From Microbotryomycetes sp. JL201 (taxonomy: Eukaryota > Basidiomycota > Microbotryomycetes), in NCBI GenBank assembly GCA_033819885.1, contig JAQYUZ010000027.1, forward strand, positions 124,001-188,000: a DNA stretch of 64,000 bases, written 5' to 3'. The stretch's first letter is position 1; the number at the start of each line of letters is the position of its first letter. The position numbers were made by a program, and so were the translations under genes. This document shows, piece by piece, positions 4,496 through 32,796 of the stretch. The notes under the pieces were generated by a model. That model was not told the origin of the DNA. It made no database searches and worked only from the letters and a program-made list of their open reading frames with translations.

Positions 4496-5575
4496 CTAAT
4501 TGGCGAACAACTCTTTCGGGAATGCGTCCAGTAGCGGTCGATCATCCCAGTGAAGAGGATCCTCCGGTCCAAGGAAGATTGCCTCGCTTATGGAATTCGC
4601 GCGTCTGTAATTTGGGCGACCGGTACCTTCATAGTAATCATGAAACTCGAATTCGGGATCCCAATGTCGAACCATAAAGCTGCGTGACGGTACTCCGTAA
4701 GCATCTGCCAAAATCAGGCCGTGCAACGACGAAGAAACGACGAAAGTCGAATTGCGTATTTCGCGCACGATGTCCTTCCAATCACTGCCTCGCGTGGACA
4801 CAATGCGCCATTCTCCTGAAAAAGCGTCGACTTCGCCGCTAGTCCCCGGATCTCCCATGTGTAGCAAAACAATGGGACGTCCCATCAAGTCGTTGGGAAT
4901 GTCGGCAGGTGCTTCGATCTCGCGGAAAAAATGGGGCACTAGTAAAGCCGGGTCTCCGTAGATTTCTGGGACGTAGAGATCCGGGAAGCGCTGCAAGATG
5001 GCCTTCCGAGTCAGTGGGCCCCGAGTAGCCCTGACGGAAATCTCGTCTGATTCGGGAGCATCTGTATGCGATTTAGCGGCTGTTCCCCAAAGTACGCTAC
5101 ATCTAGCAGCTTGTCGAGCGTGCGAGCCGCTGGTGAGCAGGCGAGGGTGTTCCAATCCTTTGAGAACACGTTGTTCGCCGACCATGCGCTCGACTAGACC
5201 TGGTCCGATCTCGTCTCCTAAGTCCTGCGTGAGGGTGTTCCCGCGGCTGGGATGAAACACACTAAAAGCTTGACCGGCGTAGAGAGGTCCGCACACATTG
5301 TCAAATTGCTGTCGATTGTCCGACTGCAGCTGCTTTGCTGCTGCCGACTGCTCAAAGCTGACGCCAAACGATTGCACGTTGTCGCGCAGGGTGTTGGCGA
5401 CGTGCGTTGGAGTACCGCCACTTGCGATCAGCACCCCAACTACCAACGTGGCGCCCAATACGATCCATATGTGACGGGAGGATAATCCCCTCGTGCCGAG
5501 TGCTTGTGTTGGCATTGCGGACGGCGAAAAAAACGCGGGCGCAGGCTGTCGATGTACGGTCAGCGATTGAGACAT
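4496..5575 (-). CDS. Polysaccharide pyruvyl transferase family protein 1 (type II membrane)
   Basis: Single exon, 359 residues, ATG at 5573-5575. The N-terminus is a short cytosolic tail, then a membrane anchor at residues about 34-52 (HIWIVLGATLVVGVLIASGG) and a stem. The lumenal domain carries hallmarks of the polysaccharide pyruvyl transferase family (PF04230): GDEIG, RATRGPLTRKA, YGDPALL and SSSLHGLILADAYGVP. Family members move pyruvate from phosphoenolpyruvate onto a sugar as a ketal, giving an acidic terminus; the fission yeast relative Pvg1 acts on galactose in the Golgi. The acceptor here is unknown. The first 102 codons and about 195 upstream bases look identical to those of the paralog at 31519-32601. 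Loss of the repeat match at residue 103 coincides with the start of the catalytic domain. Confidence 0.88.
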   Translation of the reverse strand: MSQSLTVHRQPAPAFFSPSAMPTQALGTRGLSSRHIWIVLGATLVVGVLIASGGTPTHVANTLRDNVQSFGVSFEQSAAAKQLQSDNRQQFDNVCGPLYAGQAFSVFHPSRGNTLTQDLGDEIGPGLVERMVGEQRVLKGLEHPRLLTSGSHARQAARCSVLWGTAAKSHTDAPESDEISVRATRGPLTRKAILQRFPDLYVPEIYGDPALLVPHFFREIEAPADIPNDLMGRPIVLLHMGDPGTSGEVDAFSGEWRIVSTRGSDWKDIVREIRNSTFVVSSSLHGLILADAYGVPSRSFMVRHWDPEFEFHDYYEGTGRPNYRRANSISEAIFLGPEDPLHWDDRPLLDAFPKELFAN

Positions 5576-5770
5576 CCTTCATCAAGTACAAACTACGCGG
5601 CAGCACACCCAAAATGCCGTGGCCCTGGCTCTGCAAAGCCAGGAGAACGAAGGCGGGAGGACGAGCAAAGCGGGAAGGCTCAATGCGCAGCAGGCAGGGC
5701 GAGGCGGGTAAGAAACCTGGGGCGTCCGCCACTTCAAGCCGCGTCGATGACTCGAGGTCAAAGACCTCTG
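5270..5770. repeat. 501-base duplicated 5' cassette, copy 1
   Basis: I find no difference between 5270-5770 and 32296-32796 when reading base by base. The block covers codons 1-102 of each pyruvyl transferase plus roughly 195 bases upstream of the start codon. Outside it the sequence changes abruptly on both sides. The copies are in direct orientation with an offset of 27,026 bases. Identity extends through third codon positions and non-coding bases, so it reflects recent copying and not protein selection. Confidence 0.92.
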
Positions 5771-6366
5771 TGCCTTGAGTCAATCATCAGCATTGACCTG
5801 GACATGAACTTGCTCTATGGTAGTGTAGACGGAATTGTGCTTGAGCCTTCACAAGGCCAGAAACGCCCAAGTTCTCCGACTGACGCATTCAAAGCTTGAA
5901 GCACTTCCAGTACAACCCGGAGACCGTTTGAGAAGACGCCTTATGTGAGCTCCAGGCCAAAATTTGCTCACCGGCCACCCATGTGCCAGATTGCGCACCT
6001 ACGCAAAAGTGAGCTGGTGAGCCGGACTAGGGTGTGCGCATACCTTCAAAAATTTTGTTTCTCAGAACACGTCAGCTGGTGATTCCAAGCCTGTCCACAC
6101 TGTGCAGTCCGAGCGGCAGCGCCACAGAAGTAGATTGATGCGTAAGTTCTAACCATCAAAATTTCCTCGCCCATATAATACACGCAGAGGAAGATCCACT
6201 AAGAACCAGACTTGCGCAAGAGAGGTATCATATGTAGCTCGTCAGGCATTCACGGACTGAGTTGCCGGTCAGTTTGAGAACGTGCGAGCAGCGAAGCAGT
6301 CAAGGCTGGACAGACTCGTCAAGACGCTTCTTATTTACGGAGAAATTTCAACACGAGAAAATCTAC
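5771..6366. other. Intergenic stretch
   Basis: Lies between the start of pyruvyl transferase 1 and the 3' end of the GT8-GT64 gene. No gene or structured RNA seen. Confidence 0.4.
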
Positions 6367-8815
6367 TCATGCTAATTGGGAACATCTTCGCCCATTGGAC
6401 GCTCCTTGTCCTGTCGAGATGGTTATTGAGCTGTCGGCAAACTGACAGCCTTCCCAGCTTACCATGATATCGTCAAAATCGAGCCAATCAATTTTTCTGA
6501 AATTATTTTTGATGAACGGGTGCACCATTTCGCGGTTCATGACCAAAGTGTCGCGGCCAAAAAGATCAATTAAGTCGGCCGTGCATTGATCGCGCCTCAC
6601 CGTGAATGCTGAGGAAATGGAAATGCCTTTTGTGGTGCCGAAATCGATGGCCATTGTATTCACACATACGGGAGCTTGTCCGGTCATTCCCGACACCATC
6701 ATATTCATGGCGATGTCTTCGCAGTTCATGCCTTTATCTACGAAGCGATGGATCTCCGGTGCAAGCACGCAAGTGTACGCATGAAGGCTGAAACCGGACC
6801 TGAGCTTGAGTGCGAATCACGTCCGCAATGTAAACTCACTAGTTGGCATTGAGAAACATTGCCTTTGTGAGAATGACTGCATTGTGGCTGAATCAAAATG
6901 TGTGCAACCGAAGAACGAAGATGGCATCTCACTCGAATATCTCCGATATACACCTGCCATTTCGTAAAAGGTGGAGCCGTCCTTCTTCTTGCCATGAACG
7001 CGAGGGAAGAAGCCGACGATCGAATCTTGCCGGTTCCGCCACACTGTATTCAGGTAAACGAGTAAAGGTTAGGAGATAATTCAGTCTCGTCAGCTAAAGC
7101 GTCGCACCGTCGAAAGCAAAATCCAGGTCGTCTACGGGGATGTAAATGTCATCGTCGCAGACGAAGACGGCTTGCGTTCTCAACCCAGATATGGGGTTAA
7201 AGCGGTTGTTCAGCGAATCAAAATTCTGGCGCAGAATCACAACCTTCTTCGCCGATGCAAGGTCCTCGAGCTCGGGCGGGATCGGCACATTTGGAGCATG
7301 CCAAGTGACATAGACCATTTGTACTCTGCATACATTCAGCTTTCTGTCTTTCGCCAGGAGCAGACGACTCACGATGCACTGAGCCAGTAGTGGGCAATGA
7401 GTTTCGACAGAAACTCCAATCTTTCGGAATTATAGAAGGAGATCGCAACCGAGTACTTGTCCTGGATGGGAAATCTCCCGCTCGACTCGTACTTCGCATC
7501 GTAATCTTGACAGATCTCCTCTCTCCGGCGTAGGTTTGGCCAGTCGTAAGCTTGGAGTCCACGACGGAGCTCACTTTCCATGCGCGGCAGCGCATATTCA
7601 GCGCGAAGAGGTGAATGATTCATGCTCAAATCATACTCCAGCCCGCGCCAGAACGAAAACATAGCGGGATGATAGTTGATACGCCAATCGACGTGGTAAA
7701 AGTGGTGGAAAGACCACCTAAAACACAAGCAAAACAGTCAGAATCTTCCTGAAATTTGAACGCACGAGCTTACGGCTTCGTCTCGGCCGTGTAATGGTAA
7801 ATGAAGGCGTCCTGAATCAGTTGTTTCCCGATGGCAAAACCCTGGTATCGGCAGCCGATATCAGACGGGTGAATCACGCATACTGGTCTGGAACAGACGA
7901 ACTTTGAGCTTTGCAGGTACATTGTAGGCGGACGGCAGACTGGAAACGCCCATCGAGCTGTGATTGGCGAAAAACCAGTTGAGGAAGCCTTGGTCGCCGC
8001 GATTGTAGCTTGGCGCGGTCAGGTATAATTCCATCATCTCTCGGTGGGTGTCCGTGGAGGGCTTGATGACGAGCACTGTACCAAAAAATTAGCCAAAATC
8101 CGTTTAGATGGTCTCGCGACACACCTCCCGTATTGATCACATTTCCAAGGTCTCTGACACCGGCAAATCGTGTGTCAAAATTGAACAAATGATCGATATT
8201 CTATGGGCACAAAAATGAGCAAAGCCTCTGCGCACTTGCTGGGATTGCAGTCGAACCTTTCTCACAACCGTGTCGACGTCCAAATAGATCAGGCGTTCGA
8301 ATGGCAAGTCCCATAAATGCAGCTTCGAGTATCTGCATTGCTTATTGATGCCCTGTTCGAACTTCACGAGGCCCTCGTATGGGTATTGCAGCTGCTGAAC
8401 GGGTCGCACCTCCGAAGCAAGGGCCGCGATCTTGCTGCGCGCACCCTGGCTGACACTTGGTAATGTCAAGACCACAGTCGGATGGTTCGTGCCCGTCTTT
8501 TGGATACTGTGTAACAGAACGAGCAGCGCCGGCAGCTAAAGAAATGAGCCAGTTCAAGAGACCGCATCAGCCCTGCGACCTTTATCTACGAGCAGGCCGA
8601 CAGACAAGCTCATCATCACACAGGAGTGCCGCAAAGACACAAGCTCCCGGTCGCTGCTGGCAAGTGTTGATTTGCTCTTGGGCGAAAAGCGAGTCGTCTG
8701 ACGCTTGAGATGATGGCGTGTATGCGAATCGAACGAGAGGGGCGGGGTCCATCAGCAGATATATGGCGATGAGAATCGCAGCCAGTGCAAGCCGAGACCG
8801 CGCCATGGCAGACAT
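6367..8815 (-). CDS. GT8-GT64 fusion glycosyltransferase, about ten exons
   Basis: One reading frame can be followed from the ATG at 8815 to the stop at 6367. Exons begin 8815-8606, 8535-8257, 8200-8125, 8075-7903, 7841-7774, 7717-7373 and 7325-7108, then smaller exons. The start is a type II anchor (LALAAILIAIYLLM). A GT8 domain follows: LLPALLVLLHSIQKTG, the YLDVDTVV metal-binding DxD, NTGVLVIKPS, GDQGFLNWFF and HYTAETKPW. A linker leads to a GT64 domain (EXT C-terminal type): KYSVAISFYNSERLEFL, SLNNRFNP, FVCDDDIYIP, GFFPRVHG, ILTKAMFLNANYL and MNCEDIAMN. Splice phases agree across the GT8-to-GT64 boundary, so this is one protein and not two genes. Likely a Golgi enzyme with two sugar-transfer sites. 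Known analogies are LARGE (GT8-GT49) and EXT1/2 (GT47-GT64); sugar specificity cannot be read from sequence. Confidence 0.85.
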
Positions 8816-10971
8816 GCGAATCGATTGGCAGCTTGCGAGACGGGAAGCTGCGGGAACGTGCAGAAGACGCTTTCGTCCTGCCCAAAAAACGAAAACAGGC
8901 AGCAATACTCAGGATCGTCGACCCCCAAAAGGACATTTGACTATTCCACTGCTGAACATGAGAGATTGCTTGAACAATAATCTGACCCCTGAAACCAGCC
9001 GACGACGGTCTGAGCGGTGCGCTGCAGCTTGTCGTCACATTGACACAGTCAACTTCTTCAGTCAATTTCTTCATACCTGTGATTCGGCAGCGCTCGCATC
9101 ACGCCGGCGATCACAATGCAGCGAGTCCGGGGAAGTTGGCATCAAGAAGGTTGAATGGCAGCACTGTGCCTTGTAATACCTTCTTACAGGTCTACCAGAA
9201 TGTTCCCTGTATACATCTTGACCTGACCATTACAAGCAAATCAGCGAACACCCTGGCTGAAGAAAAAAGTAATTCCATGATCCTCTCCGCTACTTGTTGG
9301 TAAAAAGCCGCCAACATCATCGCAACGCCTGTGACACCGGTAAATTTGCCTTATTACAATGCTTCGCCGCTCGCATAGGCTGAGTAGTCATGCCTACTCG
9401 CTGGCCTCTACGATAGGTAAAAATAGGTAAATTATGCGATGGGACGGATGCTGCGTGTGCTGTGCAGCTGAGCAAGAACTTGAGCGTGCCTCAAAGGGAT
9501 TTGAGTAGGCAAGTTCCAAGTGCGACAGGATTCTTTGGACTCGAGGCTGCTCAGTCTGCTCTCTGGCAGACGAGCAGGGGCGGAAATCACACGTCAGTGT
9601 GTCCGAGTCAACAGAATTCCTGCTGGTCACCTCCCAAAGTCCTCCCTGATTGGTCGTGCGGAAATGCACCATCCTCGCTTCATAGAATGTGCTTGAGCCG
9701 GAGCAGCTTCGATTACAGACAAGGCGGTACAAGCATATCGTGGTCTGGGCGAGTTTGTACGAGGAAATAACTTTCTCTCGCATACGGATCATAAGCATTC
9801 CCTGAGGCTGGACCACGAAGCTGACAGCACGAAATTGCATGCTTTGTGGGATACGAATGTCTCCCACGTGCTGGACCAGGGCCAAAGCAGGGAGGGTGAG
9901 CTTCAAGCTTGTGCGCTCGTGTAGGCCTTCTAGGTCAGTGCTTACATTGATGGGCTATGATTTTTTCATACAAAACATTCACGTCTGATCTCTAGCTGTG
10001 ACTTTATCGACTGAAACACTAACGTTGTCTCAAACAATGATCCTCTCCCCTATTCGTTGATAAACCGTCTGAAATGTTGACGACTTTCCTTGACGTTCGT
10101 GTATTTCTACATTACGTTGGTCCTTCGAGGGCTTCAGAGCAGAGGAACTCAGAGAAGGGCACCATCTCACAAAAAGAAAGCTAGAACACTGAATCACATC
10201 TGCTATGCAAGAGCGTTGGGCGCAATCAATTTGAACTGGGCACAAAGCAGATTCACGGGGTTGCTGATTGCGAAGGGAAGAACGCGGCGCGACCAGACCG
10301 TATAATTAGCCGGAGAGCCTTTTGCGAAGATCCGCGGGAGGCTTATCACGAAATGTCCGGGGACCGGCGGCCACTGGTCATGACGAGACTGCATCCGCCC
10401 AGAGGCGGTGCTGACGTGAGCGTATTCACGTTCAGCTGCCAGAGGCCGCGCTCGGACGCGTTGCGGCAAATCATGGGTAGGGTGACGAATGCGTATGAAG
10501 ACGATCGAGCGCAAACTATTTGTGTTGCCGCGTCACCTGTTTTAACTTGATTTGCTGGAACCAAACGACGAAGGTCCCGTGCAAGAAGGTGGCATCTTCT
10601 CAGTATCGATAACCCACGCCGTCAATATTGCCTGAGTTCACCAAGTTCGTCAATTTGCTCAGGCGCAATAAGCAGGGAAATATGATGAACACCTTTTCAC
10701 ACATGGCGGCGGCTAATGTAAGGAGTGTGCGCGTCTCCGATCTGACTGCGCTGTAGAACGCAGTGTGGGCCTGCTCCATTGAGGCACAGCGCTGCTAATT
10801 TTCCAGCAATTCTTGATAGGGCGAGCTCTGAAAACACTGAGAACAGTTTACGCCTGAGATATGTACATTCTTGTGAGATATGTACAAGCGAGTTCATCAT
10901 GCGTACCAGAATGTTCATTCACTTTGAAATACGGCTCGATCTGACACTTCTATCCATCGCCGGATACCAGC
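8816..10971. other. Long stretch without a recognised gene
   Basis: No supported gene. A minus-strand frame at 9394-9906 is open but unlike any family I know. A short related motif (ATGATCCTCTCC, C/CTA..TTGTTG.TAAA) occurs near 9277 and again near 10038, suggesting decayed repeat DNA. Confidence 0.3.
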
Positions 10972-12213
10972 TTACTTCCAGGTATTGGACGACAAGCTTG
11001 ACGGTTTTTGCTGAAGGGAGCAAAGAGCAGAAAGAAGGAGCATTAGGCACAATGCTGCACACGTTCGAATGGCGGTGGGTCGCAATCGCGACGTAAGGTT
11101 GGTTGTCGTATGAACGGGAGCGGACTGCACAGAATTGTTTTCTCGGCGTCCTGCAACATCTGCATCATTGTCTTGCCAAGCGGGGTGGACCAGAGCCTGA
11201 TTACTCCTGGTGACAGCCCAGCCATAATGCCAGGTGGCCAGTATAATGATGCCGCTGCCGTTGACAAAGGTTGGGGAAAGAGTCGTGTTGTCCATGGAGG
11301 GGAAAACGGCTGCAGTTGTGACCGCAATCATGACTAGGGTCAAGGCGTTGCCAACGAGCTTCCAAATTGTATCCAAGTGTCGGAGGATGCTCCCTGCAGC
11401 CAGACCAGAGGAAGCGGCAAGCGATGCGCAAATTAAGGTAGAGACTAGGATTGGCCTTGTAATCGTTGACTTAGCGTGCGGCACGCTCGCCACGTTCCCG
11501 GACCACACAGTGGCGTTAAGGCCGGCAAAGGTTAGACCCCAACAGTATAACCAAAACTGTGAGGTCCAGAAGGGCGTCAGGCTGTCCTTTAGTAGTCGTT
11601 CAGTGAGAACTGATGCGAAGGCGGAGATCGAGGCGATCGTGAGACCGATTGAGGAACCAAGCAGCTGCTTTGTCGTCTCCTCTTGCCCGCCAGTACGAGG
11701 TGCGTTCACTGTTGACTGTCCAAATTCCGAAATGGCGAGGCCAGCCACGAGGGCAATAAGGGATATCCATGCGCGCCATAATGTTTGCTTCTTGACGGTG
11801 AAGTGATGGAGTACTGCCGTGAGCGGTAACCTTGCCATCATAGCTACGTGAAGGGGGCCGGGCGCCGTAAGCTGAAGGCCGATGAAATACAGAATATTAT
11901 TGCCGAGATACAGTGTTGCGGGCACAGCGTACGTGGCACATTTGAATGCGATTTGTTGGCGCTCCGAAGACGGCGCCAAGTGGTCCTCGCGTTCATCATC
12001 GTTGGTGACCTTCGCCGGCGAGGGAACGGGCGGAAGAAGTGACGTGCAATGCCTTTTCAGCATGAAAGCACTCACGACGACTTTGATCGCCTCCGACAGA
12101 CATATGATGCCGGTGCTCGAAGGCGGGGTTCCGCTTCGTAGGAAACCAAATGTAACAACGGCCCTGGTGGTCTCAAGGACGAGAAATATGCCGAAACGGC
12201 TGAAAGTGCTCAT
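10972..12213 (-). CDS. UDP-sugar transporter (SLC35A-type nucleotide-sugar transporter)
   Basis: Single exon, 413 residues from the ATG at 12213; a longer frame upstream has no ATG. The order of segments fits the nucleotide-sugar transporter family PF04142: an N-terminal helix, LSEAIKVVVSAFML, the helix pair NNILYFIGLQLTAPGPLHV, LPLTAVLHHFTVKKQ, LISLIALVAGLAISEFG, and later helices including LTLVMIAVTTAAVF. About ten membrane segments are visible, with an extra hydrophobic run near the C-terminus (CAALCLMLLLSALC). Proteins of this kind exchange UDP-galactose, UDP-GlcNAc or CMP-sialate for the nucleoside monophosphate across the Golgi membrane. UDP-galactose is a reasonable guess given the pyruvyl transferases nearby, but the substrate is not encoded in any motif I can read. 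Confidence 0.82.
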   Translation of the reverse strand: MSTFSRFGIFLVLETTRAVVTFGFLRSGTPPSSTGIICLSEAIKVVVSAFMLKRHCTSLLPPVPSPAKVTNDDEREDHLAPSSERQQIAFKCATYAVPATLYLGNNILYFIGLQLTAPGPLHVAMMARLPLTAVLHHFTVKKQTLWRAWISLIALVAGLAISEFGQSTVNAPRTGGQEETTKQLLGSSIGLTIASISAFASVLTERLLKDSLTPFWTSQFWLYCWGLTFAGLNATVWSGNVASVPHAKSTITRPILVSTLICASLAASSGLAAGSILRHLDTIWKLVGNALTLVMIAVTTAAVFPSMDNTTLSPTFVNGSGIIILATWHYGWAVTRSNQALVHPAWQDNDADVAGRRENNSVQSAPVHTTTNLTSRLRPTAIRTCAALCLMLLLSALCSLQQKPSSLSSNTWK

Positions 12214-13829
12214 CGCCGAAAGCAAGGATGGCTTGGACGCTTCGAGGACCCGCTTGAGGATGTTTTGGCCGTGCGAAGCCTCGTTCGGAGCCCACTAAGA
12301 ACACCTTGCGTGATTGCAAAAGCGCGATTCTGCTGAATGGCGATCAGCCTGATGCGATGCGCACGTTGCGACGACGGCTTTGCATACGTCCAGCTGTGGA
12401 CACGGCGTTCGCCCAGTACACGAGGTCTGGCTCACTAAAACTCAAGTTCTGAAAAACAGGACTCCACGAACACGACTGTGCGGAACACAGCAGTGTGGCG
12501 GTGAACGAAGAATGCTTCGCGGGCGCTCCAAACGTCGTTCCCGCTGTCCGCCTCTCGCTCACCATCATTTGCCAAGTAATCCGATTCTGAAAAGGTTGTG
12601 TAAATTATGTGCCTGATAGAGGCAGCGTCAGCGTAGTGAAACTTCGAAGGACGTCAATGGTGTACTCATGTCTCCGTTCATTATTGGTGTTCAAGGATGC
12701 CACCTTTTCAATTCAGGTAGTGAAGCACGTGCCTTTCAACTAGCACTAGGAACTCACATGCAACGATCACCGCGCACCGAATACGCACGAATTCCGAGGA
12801 GCTTCAAGATCAGGGCAGAATAGAGTTTTCACCGGTTGGTAGTAGGCGGCCTGAACTCGAAGTTTTCACCCACACTGTAAAGATCAGTCTCCCGAGGGTT
12901 CTGCAAATTACTGAGTAGAACGTCAAATGGGTAGAATGTCGATAGGAGAACTCGTAAGCGCCAAGAGAGGATCTGTAAAGCCAGCGTAATGCAAGAATCA
13001 GCCTGCCATGAAGCCTCAATGTCTACCTAGAGATCATCACCACTGTCTAGCCCTTACCCAACGCGTGTCCGGCGCGTCCGCCGCCGCGCAGATTTGTTTT
13101 TATGATCGCGCTACCCCGAGCGATTGTCCAGTGTTCTCTCGCTTCTGAGCAATCGCATACTATCAGTCCCCGTAATGCTGCTGCTGCTGCTGAAAAGACC
13201 TGAGTTGTATTTGCACATCGGGGACGCGGCCGAAAGCGACGTATTGCTGGAGGAGCTCGACAACTTTGCCAAGAGACGTTCAGCAGAAGCGACCCAAAAG
13301 CAGAATAGAGAGCGAAATCAATTGCAATAGACGCATACCCCGGTTGATCGCTATGAAAGATCCTGACGGAGACACGCTCATCGGACAACTCCCTATGAGA
13401 CTCTTCCCAGCCTGGGGCTACGCTGGTGTCTGACGCGTCTCTTCGACCCCGCGGTCAGTTTCCAAGTCTCCCGGTCGCCCTTACTCTAGGAGAGCAAGAT
13501 CTCGAGGCGGCAAAGGCTCAAGAAAACTCGGCTTGAAGGCAATCGCTTTGCCTTGCTCTCCTCTGGCCTCCTAGAGCACAGTGCGATCTACGGTCCAATG
13601 GTGTTGTCAGCAAGACTTAGGAGGCGGCGGCGGTGGCAAATGAAGGGTTCGAGCTTGGTCTTGCGCATTGGAGCCGCGGTTAGTTTGAGGGATTTTCATA
13701 GACGTGTTCCGAGGAAGTACGTTCCGAAGATACGCTCGGGAGTTTGCACTTTTTTTATTTTGTGGTGCAGCAACCAGTCCCTCCTTCCCTCAATTCGTTT
13801 CATATTCTCTCACGAGATTGAAGAGGGGT
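12214..13829. other. Gene-free stretch upstream of the transporter
   Basis: Nothing identifiable. A CTG/TGC microsatellite-like run (CTGCTGCTGCTGCTG) lies near 13181. Open frames on both strands are short and compositionally ordinary. Confidence 0.3.
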
Positions 13830-15085
13830 GGTTGCTGCAGATGTCTACTCCGGACTTCTCATTATCCACCTCCATCAACCCTTTGTTTGTCGTAAAGACC
13901 GTTCCTCCAGCTCGCCCGATCTCCCACCGCTTATTGATCCGCTTATTGATCCGCTCAGTCGAGGACCCGTTCGCCTCCAGATTGCCAACCAAGACCAAGC
14001 CGACTGTGGCACCTGGAAGCAGGTACACCTTCTTCAATTCGAAATTCTGGCCCTTGGCAGACACGAATCCGACTGGTCCGTAGCCGGGACCGTTACTTGT
14101 GCGCGACCTTGACGTTGGTTGGCGATTCGACAAACTTTTGAGATGAGATCGATTTCCGGTAGATTGTCGACTAGCGCCCGGATCGATGATCCATTTCGAC
14201 GTCTGAGCTTGACTCATGAATGCAATCTCTGATGCGCTGTCGGTGATCTCCTCGATGACCGCCAAACTGATAACTTCTTCAGTCAATTTTGCGCCGTCCT
14301 TCTTGGGTGCTCGACATTCTGATCTCCAGTGTCCCGTTTTGCCGCAATTGTGGCAATTTCCCTTGGCCTTGCACCTATTGCCGTTTCTATTGCTCTTTTG
14401 TTTGTCCGCCGTGGCCGTCAGGGCTCCCGCCGACGATCCTTTGCGATCATCGCTCTGCCCTGAGCCGTTTTGGGTCATACTACGTCGGTCTGCCTCGCGA
14501 ACGACAATTTGGATGAATTATTCGGAGCTCGGGTACTCGTCCTTAGTGCCGAGTGGCCCAATCATAATCTTGACGACGTCTCAAGATTTTGGCAACGATA
14601 CGAGCATGAATACGACAAGTTGCTGGTCCGAGATGGGCTACTTGATCTTGAAGAGCTCTCGAGCGATGTTCTCCATCTTTTGTAGGTGCATTTTGACGTC
14701 TTTCGACCCTGAGAATTTCATCGAGACGAGTTCCGTGAGCAATTAGTAAGATCCTGACGCCCCGCTCTTCCTGTTGCGGCGTTCAAGGGCGTCCCACATC
14801 TCTTTCGCCGTCTCCAACTGCTCGAGGACGTCTTCCTGGTGTCCTTGGACAATCGAACCTATCGCCCGTTGGGTCGACTTGTCTTTCTTGTCCCTATTTG
14901 TCGTCTCGTCGGTGGTTGCACGTGCAGCCGGTTTGGCTTGGGATACATCGATGACACCCCAGCACTCGATCCACTCGAGGTAGGGTCGAACCTTCCGTGA
15001 ACGGCGTAGGTAATCGCTTTCCTGATCAAGCTTTGCGATCCCAAGTGCGGACGTGAAGTAGAGTGGCGCAGCAGGGTTCATAACC
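13830..15085 (-). mobile_element. Ty1/copia retrotransposon remnant (gag and start of protease region)
   Basis: A fossil copia-type element on the minus strand. Visible parts are a gag region near 15081-14480, a CCHC zinc knuckle (CHNCGKTGHWRSEC), and a protease-type region starting WIIDPGAS. I see no integrase, reverse transcriptase or RNase H, so most of the element is missing. It is broken, with several breaks. One LTR-like repeat sits directly beyond its gag end (15106-15360). Confidence 0.8.
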
Positions 15086-15105
15086 TGTTACAAGTCGTCA
15101 ATGGC

Positions 15106-15360
15106 GAGTGGCGCTGACGATGTTGTCAAAATCAAAGATAGAATTGTTGTTGAAAGAAGCAGCTACCAACTCGCCGGACTTATACACTCATTGGGAATAT
15201 TTAGAAAGAAGGGCAAGTCACAGCAGGCTGACTCTGCAGATAGAACAGAGCTGAAAAAGATGACTAAGAGCCAAACAGAAGATTTTCGAACCAGGACGAA
15301 GTCATATGACCGAATGCCTGAGTGGCAAACCACCGTGGCAAATGCCTCAGCCCATTTGAA
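15106..15360. mobile_element. LTR-like repeat 2, next to the copia remnant
   Basis: Begins with TGGCGCTGACGATGTT, as does the copy at 28482, and shares the GACTAAGAGCC, GAACCAGGACGAAGTC and ATGCCTGAGTGGCAAACCA blocks with copies 1 and 3. Its position beside the gag region, about 20-30 bases away, suits the upstream terminal repeat of that element. Diverged from the other copies, so old. Confidence 0.6.
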
Positions 15361-15885
15361 TCGCTGCGCCCCCGAAGATGCACACCGTCTAACAGTAGAG
15401 CAAGATTAGATCGTCAACTTCATCACTTGGACAAGGAAAGAGCTCTGGAGTCTAGGTCCGTTCTTACTTTCTAGCTCTCGATGAATTGTATCTGATCCAG
15501 AGCCACAGGCCAGTGGTTACATCAGCGGGCCCGACTTATGCATAATACAATGTAAGAGATCGAGGCGGTAGTCTCGGCTTTCATGGAACCGAAGAACATG
15601 AACCAAGCAGAAGGAGTCAAGTGAGAGACTTGAGACATGCTCTCAAGCCGCTGTGACAAGTGGCAACAGGATCAGAAGGATTTTTTTTTGACACGACCAG
15701 CCTTCGAAGGAGTTCCAAGTCGGTACTCACAGACGAAACTACGTGGACACCCTTCCAGCTGTGGCAGACTGTGATCATGTGTGAGTTGCAGTAAATTATG
15801 CTCAGTAGGTGTGCTGTCTATCAGTTACACTCCTTGTCTGAAACAAGTGCAGGCGGGAAGGAGATCTGACTGAGGCGGCTCGGGC
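15361..15885. other. Gene-free stretch beyond the LTR-like repeat
   Basis: No gene recognised. A run of nine T residues lies near 15682. Confidence 0.3.
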
Positions 15886-15886
15886 G

Positions 15887-20625: not shown

Positions 20626-20639
20626 GTTATCGCGTGTGC

Positions 20640-22206
20640 TTCTATGATCGATATGCCGGTCAGTCTCGCACATTTTCCGTTTTTCGATGCGATGACTGAT
20701 CACGTGAAGGATCCCAGTTTTGTCCCCCGTGTACAGCATCACTGAACGGAGCCTTCCAGCATTTGCGGATCTGCATGACTTCTAAGTCGCACTCAGAAGC
20801 AGAATCGAACGCGCGGCAGGGTTTTAGAGGAATCGTTCCTGAAACAGGTTTGCAATGCCTCGAACGATCAGCGCTGAGGCAATCGTGTACCGAACGAACC
20901 AATCCTTGACGATCTCGTGACGAAGGGCATCATTACGAGTTTACTGTCTCTGACGAAATGGCCTCTATTTTGCACAAATTCACCTTTCCACTCTCTTAAT
21001 TAGCTCGTTTCCGGTAAATTATGGATTGATCGGGTACAATCTGATGTGGCATAAGCTCGCATGCGAGATTCAGTTATTGGGGGCCCAAAAAAACGGCGAA
21101 GGCCATCAATAAATATTTGGCACGAGCGACCCGGCCAATCAACAGTTCGAAATTTACAATGGGCAGATGCATGGTGAGGGCCAAACGCGAAACTTCTGAG
21201 ACGAGATCGGTCCGGCTCTGGTTGCGAGCATGATTGATCATGAGGTACTTGCAGCGAAACCAAACCACACAAACCCTCGAGTTCTAGCAAGTGGTCCATC
21301 GCAGGCGCTGCTCGAAAGTGCGATGTTGTCTGGGGAATACGGGCGAGAGCCTACCGAAGTGCTCCCGGTTCTGCAGAGGTTCGAGATAGAGCCGTGCGAG
21401 GGCCGCCATGACGGTCAGCGTTTTGCTCCCCATATACTACCCAGAGCTCCGGCGGCACGAGTCCTTTGAAATCTCGAATTGTAATAGTCCCACACAACAA
21501 CGATCTCGGCCTGGTTGTTGAAAGCAGCTGGTACAAGAGGGTTCCGCCAGTCGCGATAGATCTAACCCTAACGCTCAAGACCTGATCGACGCATTCCCAT
21601 TTGATCTTTTCAAAGACACAGAATATTAAATTTGTCCAAAAATCAGTACGGTCCATGTGCTTCGAGGCACAATGATGACAATTCATGTTAACATGGTGAG
21701 GGAAAAGAATAGGGAAGATCACTGCGAACTAGAAGCTTGTCCGAATCTAACTCGTGGCGCGAGTTCTGTATATACCAAGGTATTTTGCGCAGTCTAAGGC
21801 ACTTGGATTTGATCATTTGAAGGTAATGCAGCTGCAAGTACCCTCAGAACTCACAGAAGCACCGAGGCAACGTATTGTGAAAGTGAAACTTACTCGCTGC
21901 TTTGGCGCTCTGGACGTGGAAAGACGTTTCTGAAGGTGCACAGGCTTCCCCAACCTAGAATAGGGTTTTCAAGACAAAAGGTCCGACTGTTGCTTGCGAT
22001 CGTGCCGTGGATACTCAAAGCTAGCATTGCCGAGCTACTCAGATTGGGACGAGACTCGAAAACAGCAGCCTGCAGCAGAAGTCCGAGAAGAACAACACGC
22101 AAAATGGAAAGTCTCCACCCGAACAATGGATCCGACCGCCCAGAAAGCAGACAGGAAAGCAACGCGGTCCAGTCTGATGACGCGAGCATCCACCGGTGTT
22201 GAGATC
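20640..22206. other. Long gene-poor stretch
   Basis: No gene supported. The minus-strand segment at 21074-21268 (WFRCKYLMINHARNQSRTDLV) looks protein-like but unassigned. A single TAACCCTAAC near 21565 is isolated and not a telomere array. Confidence 0.3.
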
Positions 22207-24605: not shown

Positions 24606-25840
24606 AGCCCTTGTTGCGGTGTAACTTTGTGTACGTCTCATAAGAGAGAAAAGAGACTCAAACGACGAGGCCAGTGGCACCCCTTGGATTCAAGCCCACG
24701 TTCACGGGGCACTCGGAGGTTCGGGAAGGCACGAGCTTCAGGCACAGGTTTCAAGTGCAAATGTGAAGGCTCGCCACAACATTCCAGGCCCCGGCTCGAC
24801 TTTGCTTCCCGCTCCGACGAATCGCGATCGAACCGTCGCTTGTACTCGCTGCGGCCCAGCGTGACCCTTCTGATACTGCATAGAGTCTCTGCGTGCGTTG
24901 ACTTTTTGATTTTTTATTTTTTAATTTTTATTTTGTTATGACCGAGGCTTTTGCACACAGAGACAGACGCTAAATGTCGCAAAAACGTAAATGCCTCGCC
25001 ATGCTAATTTGCAAGGCAGATATCGACAAACATGACTCCCAGCCTGACCCTTACCTCCGACTGACTCATGCAATCACTTTCCCCCCAGTTCTTCTTTCAT
25101 CAGAGTCAATCGGGGAAAAAGGTCGGCATAGGGTATTGTGCTGCGAGCCGAGCCGCTTCCCGTCAGTCCTGTCGGAGTCTGGAAGCAAACCCGTCCGCTG
25201 AGATCAGCCCGGATCAACATTTGCCATTTCAGATCCCACCAAAGCTCTACATATATACACTCATGAGTCAGCGCGGTTATAATATGGTAGATGCAGTGAA
25301 GCTGGGTCTCGAATTATCTTAGCCGGTTTGTCATGAAAGGTTTGCCATCAATCAGCCTCCCTGCGTGGGGGCAAGGTGCATGAACTTTCGTGGGAATTCT
25401 GCCTGCGAATATATTACGCGGAGCCAGAACTTGAAAACGCGAAGAAGATGCTCCTGTGCCTGTTCCGAATCCCGCCTGTCGCGCCAGAGGGTCATGGCAT
25501 TCTTGTCGTGCCCCTCCTCAAATGCGGGCCAGGACTAAGTCTTTCAATAGTCTCCCGGATCGACGAGCAAGTGTTGCCGAGGCAATGAGAAAAACTGACT
25601 ACCATGCAATTATGTCTCAGATACAGCATTGCCTGACTGAGAAGCTATATATCGATGTCAGGTCTCTGAAAGAACCAATCGTCACATTGCTGGTGCGGAG
25701 CATTGAACGGGGCGAAGCAGGGTGGCGTCAACTGCCATCCGCGCGCGTCCCTTCTTCTCAAATCCCAAACACACCTGCAACAAGGTCGGGGCGGGTCAGA
25801 ATAACGTTTTCAGGGACCAGATCACGGTAGCTAAGGTCGC
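24606..25840. other. Gene-free stretch with a T-rich tract
   Basis: No gene recognised. A strongly T-rich run lies at about 24900-24940 (TTTTTGATTTTTTATTTT and on). It lies just upstream of the Cys-rich pseudogene's start. Confidence 0.35.
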
Positions 25841-26035
25841 TCACCACGCGCCGCACTGATACTTGGCGCTGTCGATCAATGGCTGCTTTGGAGATTTGTC
25901 GCATGTATCATACTCGACGATAGAGTCTATCCACTCTGACATAGCAGGGTGCGTTTCTGGACAATATTGTTGCAACGCCCGACCGAGACCTGTCCTCAGT
26001 TTCGCGGCCGTTGGTCTGCAGAAGGCGCACATCAA
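25841..26035 (-). CDS. Unassigned short exon, relative of the 33.8 kb membrane protein
   Basis: The minus strand reads CPETHPAMSEWIDSI, a second Cys, then LIDSAKYQCGAW, directly followed by GTGAGC, a splice-donor-like sequence. The gene at 33828-34293 has the parallel CGEDSDLVTQWLDAF, a Cys, LLAAAQHQCSAW and GTGAAT. The spacing of W, C and the closing QC.AW suggests a shared small family or a shared exon of a larger one. Upstream exons were not found. It lies just downstream of the GT64 gene on the same strand. Confidence 0.35.
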   Translation of the reverse strand: MMCAFCRPTAAKLRTGLGRALQQYCPETHPAMSEWIDSIVEYDTCDKSPKQPLIDSAKYQCGAW

Positions 26036-26379
26036 CGTTCGCGCCGCATAAAATTGCGGGACTGTAAAATCTTACGCGAGCTCGGGGCAGAGATCAAAAG
26101 CAGTCATTTTTGTCATGCTGCGCCAAAGCTCAAGTGAAGCACCATCGCTCACACCATAACTCGCTCCATCGTCAGAGCCTGCGAAACATCTATCAGCCGA
26201 GAAAACACCCTTGCGAGGGAAAGAGGCATACAGATGGCAACCTCATGCGTTCTGGATTCGGGGCGGTCCGAACCAACCAACTCTCGCAGACAATCACTGC
26301 GCAACATCCATCGCGAATCTTGATCCGCCAAGCCGGACGTCTGCGAGCGATCGAGAGGTCTGTGTATATCAGCAATCAG

Positions 26380-27307
26380 TCAAGATGGAAGTTCGTCCCT
26401 TGATAAGTGTGCGACAGACCCGCAGATTGTTGCGTAGTCGATGAGCGAACCAGGTGGCAGAACGACCCTGAGCGGGGCAAGGCCGGTCGCGTTGCTCGCA
26501 ACGCTATTTAGCAGCAGGTCGTCACAATGAGCTTCCTGCTTGTCGACGTATGTTGTTCGCGTTTCGAGATCCGGCTTTGCATACACCTCGAGATGTCGTC
26601 GGTCCACGAGCATCACACGAGGCAGAACGAAAGAATACTCTGAGCCCTTGACAGTAACGAGCTCATCGATATCGTATCTTGCACCATTTCTGCGTCGCGC
26701 AAATGGCCCGACGAGTCGTTTCGAGTGATCTCGCCACACGGAGTGAAGACAAGTCACGCCAGCCTGATGAAACGTCGTCAGGAAGACTCACCACCGGCTT
26801 CGGATGCAGCAAACTTACCTTCGTTACTTGCACGTCATCATCAAGCACAAGGACAGCCCTTGTCTTGATGAATGGCAGGGTCGCAATCCATCTGGTTCGC
26901 AACGAGGTCAGTGATCGCCTCTGATACGACAGAAGCTTGACCCGCCTGTTGTTGAGACTATTGACGCCGTTTGACACGACCGTGACTCCTGCTGGCACAA
27001 GAAATGGCGGCTCTCGGGTCGGTTCGTTCCACACGAGCAGTACATCTTCGACGACGTCCCCGTACTCTGCCGAAGCATAGCGCTCGAGACTTTGCTTGAG
27101 CCAAACAGGCCTGAGACCTGTCGTATGGTATCCAGTAATGATGACGGTCAGTTTGTTGGACGATGTCGAGTCGGCGTGTTCGACGAAGTGCGGGGCGGCG
27201 ACAGCAGGCGCTAGGTTCCACGTGTAGGCCAAGTAAACAAGCACGAGCAGGACGATCGTAACTGGCACCAGCTTGCGCGACCAACTACCGCGCCCCAAAG
27301 CGCGCAT
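26380..27307 (-). CDS. GT64-family glycosyltransferase 2 (EXTL-like), type II membrane, two exons
   Basis: Exons 27307-26819 and 26763-26380 join in phase 0 to give 290 residues. The N-terminus has a short basic tail and one anchor (LVPVTIVLLVLVYLAYTW). The catalytic domain shows the GT64 order: KLTVIITGYH, LKQSLERYAS, VEDVLLVWNEP, SNGVNSLNNR, the metal-binding AVLVLDDDVQV, then VWRDHSKRLVGPFARR, SEYSFVLPRVMLVDRRHLEVY and CDDLLLNSVASNATG, matching the CEDI..N.L.S block. Animal GT64 proteins add GlcNAc or GalNAc in the Golgi; the fungal donor is unknown. A 21-base in-frame stretch after SLNNR could be a tiny intron or simply an insert. Confidence 0.8.
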
Positions 27308-27984
27308 CCATTCGGAAGCTTGCGGTTTGAGAATCGTGCCGGAGCTCGATACCCGAGAAAGCCTGGCTTCCCTTGTGCTTAGATCGTCGCCACGATCGTC
27401 TTGTCACAGCTGTTTAAAAGTGCTATCCTCTGCCCGTACTCCTATTCTTTTCTTCAGAGAACATGGAAGCCCTTCCCTGCCGGCCTCGCCACGGAGTGTG
27501 GGGAAGGGAGAAGAAGAAGTCCTCAAAGCAAGTTAGAGACGGACGTATAAATGCAGAAGTCACTGTGTCTTTTCGGACGAGCATCCAGCGACGCCGCGCG
27601 CCAGCTTCTTCTTTTCGCGCGCGCGCTGGATGGCGTTCAACGCCGTGATGACCCTGAAGCCGCTCGGGAGCTTGAGCATGTCAAGAATACGATTGGGTAC
27701 CGCGGCATTGCAAGAAGATAAAATCAAACATGATTGACCGTATGCGTCACACAGCTATTCGGATTTGCTTGTCAAATTCCTAGTGCTGGCCTCAACTGGA
27801 GTATATAGCCGATCCTGCTTGACCCTCTTGCCACGCTGCAAAGATCGGACAGGCGAGATTGTGCGATGAAAGGATGACCGACACGCTCTCGGCCAAAGCG
27901 CTTTGTGATGCATCAAAAAAAAATCAAGCAAAGTCGGCGCCGCGAGAGTCTCAAGACCAGTCATAATGGCCGGACCAGCAAGAC
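27308..27984. other. Intergenic stretch
   Basis: No gene. Upstream of GT64 number 2; near 27510 an A/G-rich tract (GGGAGAAGAAGAAGTCC), near 27907 a nine-A run. Confidence 0.35.
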
Positions 27985-28445
27985 CTTTGAGAATGGGTAT
28001 ATGTAGCCAGTCGAATCAAAACCTCCAGATTCGTGCACGTTCTTGACACGTTCAGAGTAGTCAGCGGGGAACTTGTCAGAACTAACGGGATCTGCACCGG
28101 GGGTAAGAGGTTAGCGTTACTCCTGGCAATGCTCGACGCCGCCGAGAGACCTTGAATGTAAAATGTGTCTTGGAGCTCACGGGCGGGATGCTGTTGGAGA
28201 ACAATGAGCGAGCCGAAATTCCAGAAGCCAGACTCGAGGAAGCGGTTGGTCGGCATCTCGGTGAAACTGCATTGAGGAGCAATGTGTCATTAAACATCAA
28301 AATATAGCGTGCCCCATTTCGAAAAAGATATTTCGGAAGTCTTCCCGTACTTTCATCAGCGGATGCAAAGCGCCACCGTTAGTCGGAGCGCCTTCCGCGG
28401 CAAAGTTGTACTTTTTGAACGAGGCATTCTGCCACGTTCCACTAC
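27985..28445 (-). pseudogene. Fragment of the cytosolic phenylalanyl-tRNA synthetase alpha gene
   Basis: Three consecutive exon-like pieces on the minus strand encode FKKYNFAAEG, GALHPLMKVREDFRNIFFEMG, FTEMPTNRFLESGFWNFGSL, QQHPARELQDTFYIQ, and DPVSSDKFPADYSERVKNVHESGGF then GYIYPFSK. This is the central part of the PheRS alpha subunit (FRS2/FARSA type). Introns are still present between the pieces, so it came from genomic DNA and not from reverse-transcribed mRNA. The N-terminal domain and the rest of the catalytic core (motifs 2 and 3) are absent. An LTR-like repeat starts about 37 bases upstream. Not a functional synthetase. Confidence 0.8.
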
Positions 28446-28481
28446 CCGTGCAAAGTGTCACAAGTCACTTATGGGTATGTG

Positions 28482-28740
28482 GCGCTGACGATGTTTTGTT
28501 GGAATAACTGATCTTATTCTCAGAGAAAGTCGCTACCAACCAGCTGGGCTTATATACCCACATAGAACATTCTAGAAGAGATGAAGAAAGGCTGCGCAGC
28601 ACTGTATGCTGACTCAGCCATGGAACCAAATAGAACACGATGACTAATATCAAACAGAAGATCGTAGAACCTGAACGAAGTCATATGACCTCATGCCTGA
28701 GTGGCAAACCAGTGTGGCAAATGTCTCAGGCGACACAAAG
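28482..28740. mobile_element. LTR-like repeat 3 (copia-type, fossil)
   Basis: Starts TGGCGCTGACGATGTT as in copy 2, contains GGGCTTATATACCCA near 28547, and shares the GATGACTAA, GAACGAAGTCATATGACC and ATGCCTGAGTGGCAAACCA blocks. The TATA-like element fits a terminal-repeat promoter. Solo copy, next to the PheRS alpha fragment. Confidence 0.6.
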
Positions 28741-29322
28741 GTCAACGCGTATAGCTACAACCCTATCAGGTTTCTAAGAGATTACTCACGAATTGAGAAG
28801 CTCGACAGTGAGGTCAGTCTCGAGCTTTTCGATAGTCGTAGCAAAGTTTGCCTTTGAGTCAAGTCCCAACTTTTGTTCTTAGTGACAAAGAGGTGGCCGC
28901 ACGTCTGGCCTGATGAGGTCTGCTCTTGCAGCCGAAACAGACATCGATTCCTTTCGCCGGTAGACGCCTCCCTGCACCTGCAGAACTCAAACGCCATACA
29001 ATTTACCGTTCACACTTAATATAACCCTAACCGCTTGTTCCGGCCGCCCGTTTCCGCTCCACGACAGCCTGCACGCCAACTCGCCCTTGAGGCATATCAA
29101 AATCCTCAGGTAGACTCAACAAGCACTACCTGATTCAAAGGTACGGTCGGTCAGGCTGAACAGTACTGTTCAGCCTGTGGGCCAACGGAAACATTTTTCG
29201 GCTCATCTGCCCTCTCCGGACCGGCTGACCGCCTTACCGCTCCACAGAAGCGACCATTTATAGCTGCACATTCGTCGCAGTACGGCTATACTTTCGACTT
29301 CGACTTCGACAATCAACATACC

Positions 29323-29610
29323 ATGCCTGCCTCTGAGTCCGCCGTGTCGTCATCGACGTACTCGACGGGTTTGACCGTTAGTGCGCCCCGATTGACCACA
29401 GCGACTACGGAGTCAGGTATTGCCCTTGACCAGTGAAAAGCCGAAACCGCTATATCCCGTGAATAATACAACCTGTCGAGACGCTGCTCGATCGACTCCG
29501 AGCAACAAATCTTTCATTACGTACTTCGCTTATTGAAGGAAATTCACTCGACTTCGAACGATGGCGAGTCCGATTAAGGGACAAGTTCATGTCAAGTGAT
29601 AATTGAGTGC
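29323..29610 (+). mobile_element. Possible gag-like fragment of a retroelement (fossil)
   Basis: The plus strand has a Ser/Thr-rich start (MPASESAVSSSTYSTG) near 29323 and, about 200 bases on, a segment reading SLIEGNSLDFERWRVRL. The second piece resembles the opening of copia-type gag proteins. Broken and short; family assignment is weak. Confidence 0.3.
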
Positions 29611-29852
29611 GGCATGACCTGATGACATGAAATGGACAAAGCGCATGGGATCTGGACATAGCAGCGAGGTCTCTGTCCACGCAGGCCATACATTCTTTCG
29701 TTCTTCGTTGGCCCAAACTCATATCTGCGAACGAGCCCAATGAAACCATTTTGAAGTGCACTGAGCAAAAGCCTGAAAATATGTCGGAAGAAAGAAAGTC
29801 TGACGTCGAATGCAGAACGGAGAAGCAGAAGCTGAAAGCTCCGCCTCGACCC

Positions 29853-30865
29853 TCACCGCAAGTTCCAGCACGACATTTGATAACCGCTACTGGCACCTCC
29901 CTCTTGTGCGCCCGGAGCAAAGAATTCTCCGCCGAATTGAGCCTGCTCCAGCTCATCAGTCGTGCTCGTTGGGCAGATTTGAAGTCGCGTCTGGCTCACC
30001 AGATAACCGCCACATTTACCAAGCGTGACTGCACCATTGTAGATCGCACGCCCATGGTAGATCGTGTTATCAGTCTCAACTCCTCCTACGATCGGAGTGC
30101 AGCCTGCTGGCGTCTGGCGGCGCAACAAGACGTAGTCAGCGACTGTGGTCCTCACGGAGGCTTGATTGCTCACTTGTCCACCGCTTGCATCAACCCAACT
30201 CATGTCCTCCGTGAACGGCAAAAGGTTAAAGTTGTTCTGAATCACGGCGTCCGTCAGTCGATGTATCAGCTCAACGGCAAGACGAGCACGCACAGAAGTT
30301 TTTCGATCTCCACCGAGCGGTGCCTGGGCTGAGCCCGAGCTAATAAAGTCGCTCAAAGAGCCTGGAACCACGTAATCATCTTGGACCAGGACAGTCGCAA
30401 TGTACAAAGGCGAGTTTGGGTCGAGTGAAGGACCAAATCTTGTCTGGTCACCGAGATCGCCATCGCGGATGATCACTTTTTTGGCTTCTGGAGGCACGCA
30501 GCGTCCAGAAACTGTGGACCAATCGAGCCCGAGGCGCATGTGAAGGTGGCCGAACCGTCGCACACTCCGTTGATTGGGCAGGCGGTACAAGCGCCATCGT
30601 AGAACAATGAAGGATTGCCTAAGCTGTCTACGCAGGGTCCGCACGTGTTGGCTACACAAAAGACAGAGCTTCAGCGCATTGTCTTTGCCGAAGCTTTGAG
30701 ACTAACTCGCGCTGTTGTACGCAGGCGACGTGCTTGTCGGGTCGCAAGTTGGAACCGGGTCGCAAGCATTCGTCGTAGAAATGTACCAGAAGCCTGTGTT
30801 GCACGTGAGCTCGGATCGACCATTGCATGACGTATTAGCTGGACAGGACTGGCACGAGTCACCTT
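29853..30865 (-). pseudogene. Cys-rich modular protein (copy C), 5'-truncated
   Basis: Two Cys-module exons and the C-terminal domain match copy A (31-2130) closely: SCQSCPANTSCNGRSEL...TGFWY...NACDPV, then TCGPCVDSLGNPSLFY.GACTACPINGVCDG, then DLGDQTRFGPSLDPNSPLYIA and the ending YQMSCWNLR. The last intron (YL|GTGAGCC...GAGCAG) is conserved. There is no signal-peptide exon upstream; the first recognisable exon starts near 30865. The frame shifts by one base near 30510, after CASGSIGP. Only one copy of the exon 6/7 module is present. Truncation plus frameshift make this a pseudogene, though a paralog of the only apparently whole copy. Confidence 0.7.
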
Positions 30866-30869
30866 TTCA

Positions 30870-31518
30870 CATACACAAGTCCTAAGCGAATGGTTACGAA
30901 AGAATCGGCAGGTTGTTGAGGCAGAATCAACCCTCTTGGACGAACGTCCGACCGGCATCAGCCGCTCTGCAACAGACACATGCCAAACCTTTTTCGTCAG
31001 GTATCAGAGCCTCGACGTTAGCAAAGCTGCCCTGCACCTCCCAAACACGCAGCGAGGCGGCCAGACTGACTGTACGTTTCTGGACGGTTGCTGCGTCTCT
31101 TTAAGCGCCCCCAATCTCGTTGCGCTGGTGAAGAACTTGAACTGCCACCTGCGGTGGGGATAGGCCCGGAAAATGTTCGCGAGGTCGATAACTCTCGCAA
31201 GCGGGTTTCAGTGAAATTGTCGCGCGATCGACGGGGACTTCGATCAATTGAACGAAGCGGTGTGATTCCCCCACCTTACAACTCGCTCTTGCTCCACGGA
31301 ACGTGATCCGGGTTCTCCGGAATGTGACTCTGTTACCAGAAAATCGCAGAGACGCGATCGTCCGTGCAAGTTTTTGGAGAGGTCGAGACTGGACAACTAA
31401 TCTGAAAGCATTTGATGATGACAGAATCGCTACTTTGGGGCTTGATAAGAGCCAACTGGACCAAACTAGTTTTCGGCAAGAGGCCAGACCGTAGGAATTG
31501 CTGGCACTCACTTGACAG
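30870..31518. other. Stretch without a recognised gene
   Basis: Lies between the truncated Cys-rich gene and pyruvyl transferase 2. No similarity to copy A's first exons found here. Confidence 0.4.
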
Positions 31519-32601
31519 CTAATTGGCAAACAACTCTCGCGGAAACGCGTCTAGTAGTGGTCGATAATCCCATTGAAGAGGATCCTCTGGTCCAAGGAAG
31601 ACTGCCTCGCTGATGGAGTTTGCGCGTCTGTAGTTTGGGCGTCCAGTGCCCTCGTAATAGTCATGAAATTTGAATTCGGGCTCGAAATGTCTCAGCATGA
31701 CACCGCGCGAAGGAACACCGTAAGCATCGGCCAGAATGAGGCCATGCATAGATGACGAAATGACGAAAGTTGAGTTGCGAATCTCTCGGACGACGTCTCT
31801 CCAGTCGGCGGCTAGCGCTGACACGATCCGCCAGTCTGACGGAAGCTTTTCCACGACGTCGTCATTAGAACCTAAATCACCCATATGCAGCAGAACGACG
31901 ACACGTCCCATCAAGTCGTCGGGAACGTCATCGGGCCTTTCGATCTCTGGAAAAAACTTTGGGACCAGTAAAGCCGGATCACCATAGATCTCGGGCACAT
32001 ATAAATTCGGATACCGCTGCATGATGGCTTTCCGCGTCAGAGGGCCTCTTGTCGCTCGAACCTGAACGATTTCTGTCGGAGGAGGATACGGATGGGATCT
32101 CGAGCCCGTGCCCCACAGAATGGTGCAGCGAGCAGCGAAGTGAGCGTACGAGCCGATTGTGAGCAGACGAGGGTGCTCCGGTCCCCTCAGCACTCGTTGG
32201 CCTCCAAGAATACGCTCGACGAGATCTGGCCCAATCTCGTCTCCGAAATTCTGCGTCGAGTAGTTTCCGCGTGACCAACGATGAATATGGTACGGTTGAC
32301 CGGCGTAGAGAGGTCCGCACACATTGTCAAATTGCTGTCGATTGTCCGACTGCAGCTGCTTTGCTGCTGCCGACTGCTCAAAGCTGACGCCAAACGATTG
32401 CACGTTGTCGCGCAGGGTGTTGGCGACGTGCGTTGGAGTACCGCCACTTGCGATCAGCACCCCAACTACCAACGTGGCGCCCAATACGATCCATATGTGA
32501 CGGGAGGATAATCCCCTCGTGCCGAGTGCTTGTGTTGGCATTGCGGACGGCGAAAAAAACGCGGGCGCAGGCTGTCGATGTACGGTCAGCGATTGAGACA
32601 T
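31519..32601 (-). CDS. Polysaccharide pyruvyl transferase family protein 2 (type II membrane)
   Basis: Single exon, 360 residues. Tail, anchor and stem (codons 1-102) are the same DNA as in paralog 1 at 4496-5575. The catalytic part has the same motif set: FGDEIGPDLVERI, RATRGPLTRKAIMQRYP, YGDPALLVPKFF, the changed loop GDLGSNDDVVEKL, and SSSMHGLILADAYGVP. It differs from paralog 1 at many positions scattered through the domain, including the segment just after the stem (PYHIHRWSRGNY versus AFSVFHPSRGNT). Both keep the residues expected for the fold, so both may work, possibly with different acceptors. The shared promoter block suggests shared regulation. Confidence 0.88.
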   Translation of the reverse strand: MSQSLTVHRQPAPAFFSPSAMPTQALGTRGLSSRHIWIVLGATLVVGVLIASGGTPTHVANTLRDNVQSFGVSFEQSAAAKQLQSDNRQQFDNVCGPLYAGQPYHIHRWSRGNYSTQNFGDEIGPDLVERILGGQRVLRGPEHPRLLTIGSYAHFAARCTILWGTGSRSHPYPPPTEIVQVRATRGPLTRKAIMQRYPNLYVPEIYGDPALLVPKFFPEIERPDDVPDDLMGRVVVLLHMGDLGSNDDVVEKLPSDWRIVSALAADWRDVVREIRNSTFVISSSMHGLILADAYGVPSRGVMLRHFEPEFKFHDYYEGTGRPNYRRANSISEAVFLGPEDPLQWDYRPLLDAFPRELFAN

Positions 32602-32796
32602 CCTTCATCAAGTACAAACTACGCGGCAGCACACCCAAAATGCCGTGGCCCTGGCTCTGCAAAGCCAGGAGAACGAAGGCGGGAGGACGAGCAAAGCGGG
32701 AAGGCTCAATGCGCAGCAGGCAGGGCGAGGCGGGTAAGAAACCTGGGGCGTCCGCCACTTCAAGCCGCGTCGATGACTCGAGGTCAAAGACCTCTG
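32296..32796. repeat. 501-base duplicated 5' cassette, copy 2
   Basis: Matches 5270-5770 base for base as far as I can read, in the same orientation. It ends at codon 102 of the gene on one side and about 195 bases upstream of the ATG on the other. Beyond CCTCTG on the upstream side the two loci have nothing in common. Confidence 0.92.

Follow-up and report, generated by a model that had tools for sequence, protein, structure and literature searches.

An identical upstream and membrane-anchor block on two old pyruvyl transferase paralogs of Microbotryomycetes sp. JL201

How can two genes share every base of their front parts when their catalytic domains have long diverged? The question is raised by two pyruvyl transferase genes (PT-a and PT-b) of the basidiomycete Microbotryomycetes sp. 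JL201, which share an orientation and lie 27 kb from each other on one 224-kb contig (JAQYUZ010000027.1, here C20). We analyzed 64,000 nucleotides of this contig (positions 124,001 to 188,000), referred to as the window, within an assembly of 17.15 Mb and 92 contigs. Both genes are open frames, and their products match the PF04230 family with 39.4 and 41.8 bits, above the Pfam cut-off of 25.3. A sequence-only reading of this DNA had noticed by eye a base-for-base match at the front of both genes, described it as an upstream region with the tail, membrane anchor and stem, and set its boundary where the catalytic domain begins. All of these observations held when the two loci were aligned and the protein was modeled.

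Pairwise alignment gives identity at 501 of 501 positions (Table 1), and the match is maximal, with not one further base agreeing on either side. The block consists of 195 bases upstream of the assumed ATG and codons 1-102; in the protein database, both proteins are predicted to start at residue 21 instead of at this ATG. All 102 codons agree, at their silent sites as well. Given a background identity of 70%, which is about that of the catalytic part, a run of 501 identities would occur by chance with a probability of ~10^-78, and the 95% upper bound on divergence within the block is 0.6%. As a feature of the JL201 assembly the block is exact, and an event of a known kind explains it best.

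Table 1. Positions of the two genes and their parts (window coordinates)
Feature	Position	Strand	Remark
Pyruvyl transferase copy a (PT-a), 359 aa, open frame	4496..5575	(-)	PF04230, Pfam E 8.4e-10
Diverged catalytic part + stop, copy a	4496..5269	(-)	nucleotide identity by stretch (see text)
Identical block, copy a	5270..5770	(-)	501/501, maximal exact match; 2 copies in genome
Predicted membrane helix, residues 33-51, copy a (same in b)	5423..5479	(-)	AlphaFold2 (copy b model)
Block upstream part, copy a (putative 5' UTR and/or promoter)	5576..5770	(-)	similarity stops at 5770/32796
Pyruvyl transferase copy b (PT-b), 360 aa, open frame	31519..32601	(-)	PF04230, Pfam E 1.6e-10
Diverged catalytic part + stop, copy b	31519..32295	(-)	nucleotide identity by stretch (see text)
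Identical block, copy b	32296..32796	(-)	501/501, maximal exact match; 2 copies in genome
Predicted membrane helix, residues 33-51, copy b	32449..32505	(-)	AlphaFold2
Block upstream part, copy b	32602..32796	(-)	similarity stops at 5770/32796

The catalytic domains, as had also been noticed, differ at many scattered positions. Nucleotide identity by stretch, from the block to the C-terminus, is 63, 67, 70, 73 and 87%, and the codons after 102 have a dS of 1.1-1.4 and a dN of 0.19-0.21 by three methods (dN/dS 0.14-0.19). Only 88 of the 175 codons that specify the same amino acid in both genes (Met and Trp left out) are identical, and the longest run of identical bases in the codon alignment of the catalytic part is 17. 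Judged by their sequences, the catalytic parts are old paralogs. An older conversion tract at the C-terminus was considered and rejected, the higher identity there being not significant (permutation p 0.18, same-amino-acid codons). Substitutions in the catalytic part comprise 110 transversions and 109 transitions; since transversions are as common as transitions, the diverged part did not originate in C-to-T mutation, and repeat-induced point mutation or another C-to-T mutator is ruled out.

The 3 kb upstream of each block show no similarity between the loci (best E 1.1) and find only themselves in genome searches, and the 1195 and 718 bases downstream of the stops contain no match between the loci beyond chance (best E 0.10). 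Recent duplication of the whole segment is thus ruled out, because the adjoining flanks have no match better than E 0.10. Farther downstream, both loci have DM9-like genes and copies of a short repeat, at different spacings. Purifying selection on the protein alone is likewise ruled out by the identity of silent and upstream sites: perfect silent and non-coding identity beside a dS of 1.1-1.4 argues against it.

To place the downstream edge of the block on the protein, copy b was modeled with AlphaFold2 (42-row alignment, mean pLDDT 84.8, pTM 0.78). In this model, residues 1-28 have low confidence, a membrane-type helix spans residues 33-51, further helices occupy 56-69 and 78-99, and the first strand is at 105-106; hydropathy peaks at residues 36-54. 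Occupancy among 40 homologs, chosen from 120 listed of 1613 matches, is 97% for columns 100-110, 60-78% for columns 91-97 and at most 12% for columns 60-87. Column occupancy and the model together put the block edge (codon 102/103) after the final stem helix of the prediction and ahead of the first strand, where the catalytic fold begins.

The predicted N-terminal membrane helix, following a short tail, is a feature of type II membrane proteins. The pair would share this architecture with Pvg1p, the Golgi pyruvyltransferase of Schizosaccharomyces pombe, as described in PMC4872226 and PMC6801904, and a Golgi location is suggested solely by analogy to Pvg1p (PMC6801904). The Pvg1p structure (5ax7) is a weak fold match, at Foldseek rank 3 (probability 1.00, TMq 0.41, E 3.3e-3), and no Foldseek match passes 0.001. 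The pair differs from Pvg1p in having no convincing sequence match to any PDB chain, the one match of a PDB sequence search being an antibody fragment (E 0.65) that we took as chance, and in that the named sequences among the closest relatives listed are bacterial.

The best reading of these data is one recent, non-reciprocal copying of the front part, by conversion or by a homology-poor variant of it; the variant is included because the sequence next to the block is 63% identical at one edge and has no similarity at the other. We consider it somewhat probable that the event was ectopic gene conversion, in which the 5' part of one paralog lately overwrote the corresponding part of the other. 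A recent event of gene conversion or segmental exchange had been proposed from the sequence alone, and the 501/501 identity beside a dS of 1.1-1.4 supports this proposal. A near-identical tract that includes silent sites is indeed found inside old paralogs. Clear homology on both sides of the tract is not: the downstream side has 63% identity, no upstream similarity is found today, and the edges of the block show no mosaic zone.

Published tract lengths agree with conversion. According to PMC3924818, yeast tracts averaged a minimum of ~500 bp in one study and 200-300 bp in most follow-ups, and likelihood estimates range from ~50 to several hundred bp; 501 bases are of the order of these yeast lengths and fit classical conversion, as does the location of both genes in one orientation on one contig. 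The same source (section 2.1) states that conversion occurs mainly above 80% identity, with a low rate below. Ordinary conversion is therefore unlikely here, unless the front parts were far more alike before the event. One way out, by analogy to rice duplicates ~100 million years old that were reportedly converted in portions only (PMC8214281), is that earlier conversions may have kept the front parts alike.

The proposed course would begin with the two old paralogs, 27 kb apart and in the same orientation, and a break in or near the putative promoter of one of them. Breaks are frequent in yeast promoters and could bias conversion toward 5' parts. Ectopic repair synthesis would then have copied the 195 upstream bases with the tail, anchor and stem from the paralog. 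The tract may have run upstream to the end of older shared sequence and halted downstream where the catalytic domains had diverged, which would leave an identical upstream region and membrane anchor on two different catalytic domains. Similar expression and location would be expected for both enzymes.

Interlocus conversion, as treated in PMC3924818, resembles this case in the short identical tract within old paralogs on one contig and in its length; the difference is that there is almost no homology at either edge here today. The recursive ectopic conversion of Aspergillus (PMC12844118) also involves fungal paralogs within one region, but it is repeated and accompanied by gene splitting, whereas here we see one event with intact frames.

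The sparse homology at the edges is also what illegitimate copying would leave, in which template switching or end joining, needing scant homology or none, would have patched a break with the paralog's 501-base piece and so made a chimeric gene at a single stroke. We regard this as possible, though unlikely. No similarity between the loci is seen past the upstream edge, the stretch next to the downstream edge is the most diverged one (63%), and the surroundings are a patchwork that includes an inverted copy at 29443-30914 (88%) and a copy on another contig, C12 (90-95%). Partial and chimeric duplicates account for 56-86% of duplicates in Caenorhabditis elegans and Drosophila melanogaster and for 11% in yeast, by the figures of Katju (PMC3449122). 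As in the duplicates described there, near-identity ends within the reading frame and each copy keeps its own remainder; the remainders here differ from theirs in being paralogous and in register. However, an in-frame swap at the matching codon is hard to obtain without homology guiding at least one end, and no diagnostic joint sequence is visible by eye.

Abrupt edges on 501 identical bases in a draft of 92 contigs could also mean that one front part was wrongly doubled in the contig. Such an assembly artefact is improbable in our estimation, given that each reading frame continues unbroken across its joint, in phase with the paralog, and that the 224-kb contig containing both joints has no N.

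Searches for further copies bear on the broader proposals. Across the whole assembly, a DNA search with the block and a protein search with residues 1-102 each found two places only. In a set of 5.8 billion proteins, where the search finds only relatives sharing exact words, words from residues 1-102 gave no third protein up to E 10 (85 candidates scored). Exact repeats of at least 40 bases number three on the 224-kb contig: the block, a pair of 48-base copies 64 bases apart, and an inverted repeat of 139 bases. As background, candidate-limited genome searches with six stretches of the window (~53 kb, all before position 55798) gave a top identity of 95% over 112 bases (contig C12), self matches and an exact inverted match of 26 bases within C20 excluded. 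A mobile element is ruled out, the block having just two copies, in the same place of paralogous genes, where an element would be expected in unrelated contexts with terminal repeats or target duplication; no flanking duplication is seen by eye.

In one broader reading, a homology-poor route would have transferred an exact regulatory-plus-anchor module to a paralog at its domain boundary, and transfers of this sort would recur in fungal glycan clusters and repeatedly give enzymes with drifting catalytic domains one promoter and address; we hold this to be very unlikely. Still less credence goes to a recurring exchange that would place one front on several catalytic variants and diversify surface glycans. 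The sequence-only reading had raised it as what recurrence at other loci would imply, and neither recurrence nor such a system was borne out. In its favor, a single contig has four PF04230 places and, close by, further frames that are glycosyltransferase-like, but the block and the anchor-stem each have two copies in the assembly where three or more donors or recipients would be expected, no third anchor protein was found among the 85 candidates scored as exact-word relatives, and the remaining two PF04230 genes carry different anchors (by eye). Equally slight is the chance that an mRNA 5' end (195-base leader and 306 coding bases) was written into the other gene as cDNA: this would account for the homology-free upstream edge if 5770/32796 were the transcript start, but reverse transcripts usually retain the 3' end, which is missing here.

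If front-part copying by conversion or its homology-poor variant is accepted, the direction of transfer can be considered. The best 12-base inverted match across the upstream edge is 10/12 for copy a and 8/12 for copy b, but 13 of 300 random places reach the copy a score, and this hint on the donor was therefore not used. Family-like residues of copy b beside the downstream edge weakly suggest the opposite direction.

The two catalytic domains are unequal in their departure from the family. Besides each other, their closest proteins among the matches listed are two unnamed ones, 51 and 45% identical. Among the 40 homologs, 73 columns are conserved in 85% or more; copy a departs at 16 of them and copy b at 10. 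Four columns invariant in 40/40 homologs are altered in copy a (N118D, F119L, G166A, K311E) and one in copy b (L285M), and copy b is the nearer relative for 37 of the 40. Against a joint outgroup of P0003 and P0004, 19 changes are unique to copy a and 5 to copy b (binomial p 0.007); the excess in copy a persists with either as single outgroup (p 0.006 for P0003, 0.014 for P0004) and is not significant with three more distant outgroups (p 0.09, 0.26, 0.12). The four altered invariant residues, together with the 19 versus 5 unique changes, suggest that PT-a and PT-b may not be equivalent enzymes. Copy a may have acquired a new specificity or be losing activity, despite its open frame and the dN/dS of 0.14-0.19 for the pair.

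The locus offers a clean case in which an upstream region and membrane anchor make up the copied unit, which ends where the catalytic fold starts. It suggests a way for conversion to keep enzymes matched in expression and location as they diverge, and it carries a warning that trees built from such N-termini would mislead. Should the low flanking homology prove true in relatives, the pair would provide a basidiomycete test case for copying with very little homology.

The surroundings look like a glycan gene neighborhood, with a nucleotide-sugar transporter, GT64-like, GT61-like and DM9-like frames and ALG6/ALG8 in the window; Rfam and tRNA scans of the window gave no matches. PF04230 occurs in at least four places in the assembly, all on this contig (4/4 candidates scored), the other two being C20:188714-189175 and C20:200730-201272, outside the window. 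They mark a second, inverted PF04230 pair (C20:188199-189342 and C20:200262-201458) with probable introns (by eye). In a tblastx self-comparison of the contig, most of whose matches were noise, its pieces are 61-70% identical in protein among the matches listed, and its translations open with their own, different hydrophobic anchors (by eye).

Other copied pieces were observed nearby, all more diverged than the identical block. The DM9-like gene region has inverted copies at window 29443-30914 and C20:121639-123112, which are 88% identical over 1476 columns with fairly even identity (0.72-0.96 in 50-base bins), and a third copy at window 70-2132. Window 27984-28848 is 90-95% identical to C12:28596-29188, indicating copying between contigs. 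At window ~28460-28735, judged against the uninterrupted site on contig C12 near 29080, there is an insertion of ~265-275 bases that looks like a solo LTR; its ends read TG...CA, and a 5-base target duplication, CAAAG, is likely (both by eye). Similar pieces are present at window 3374-3545 and 15086-15350 and on contigs C8, C37 and C57. The exact 139-base inverted repeat lies outside the window near the contig start (C20:1174-1312 and C20:1760-1898). Finally, a frame at window 13810-14478, with a zinc knuckle and a Pol_BBD match just under the cut-off, is probably a Copia-like retrotransposon remnant.
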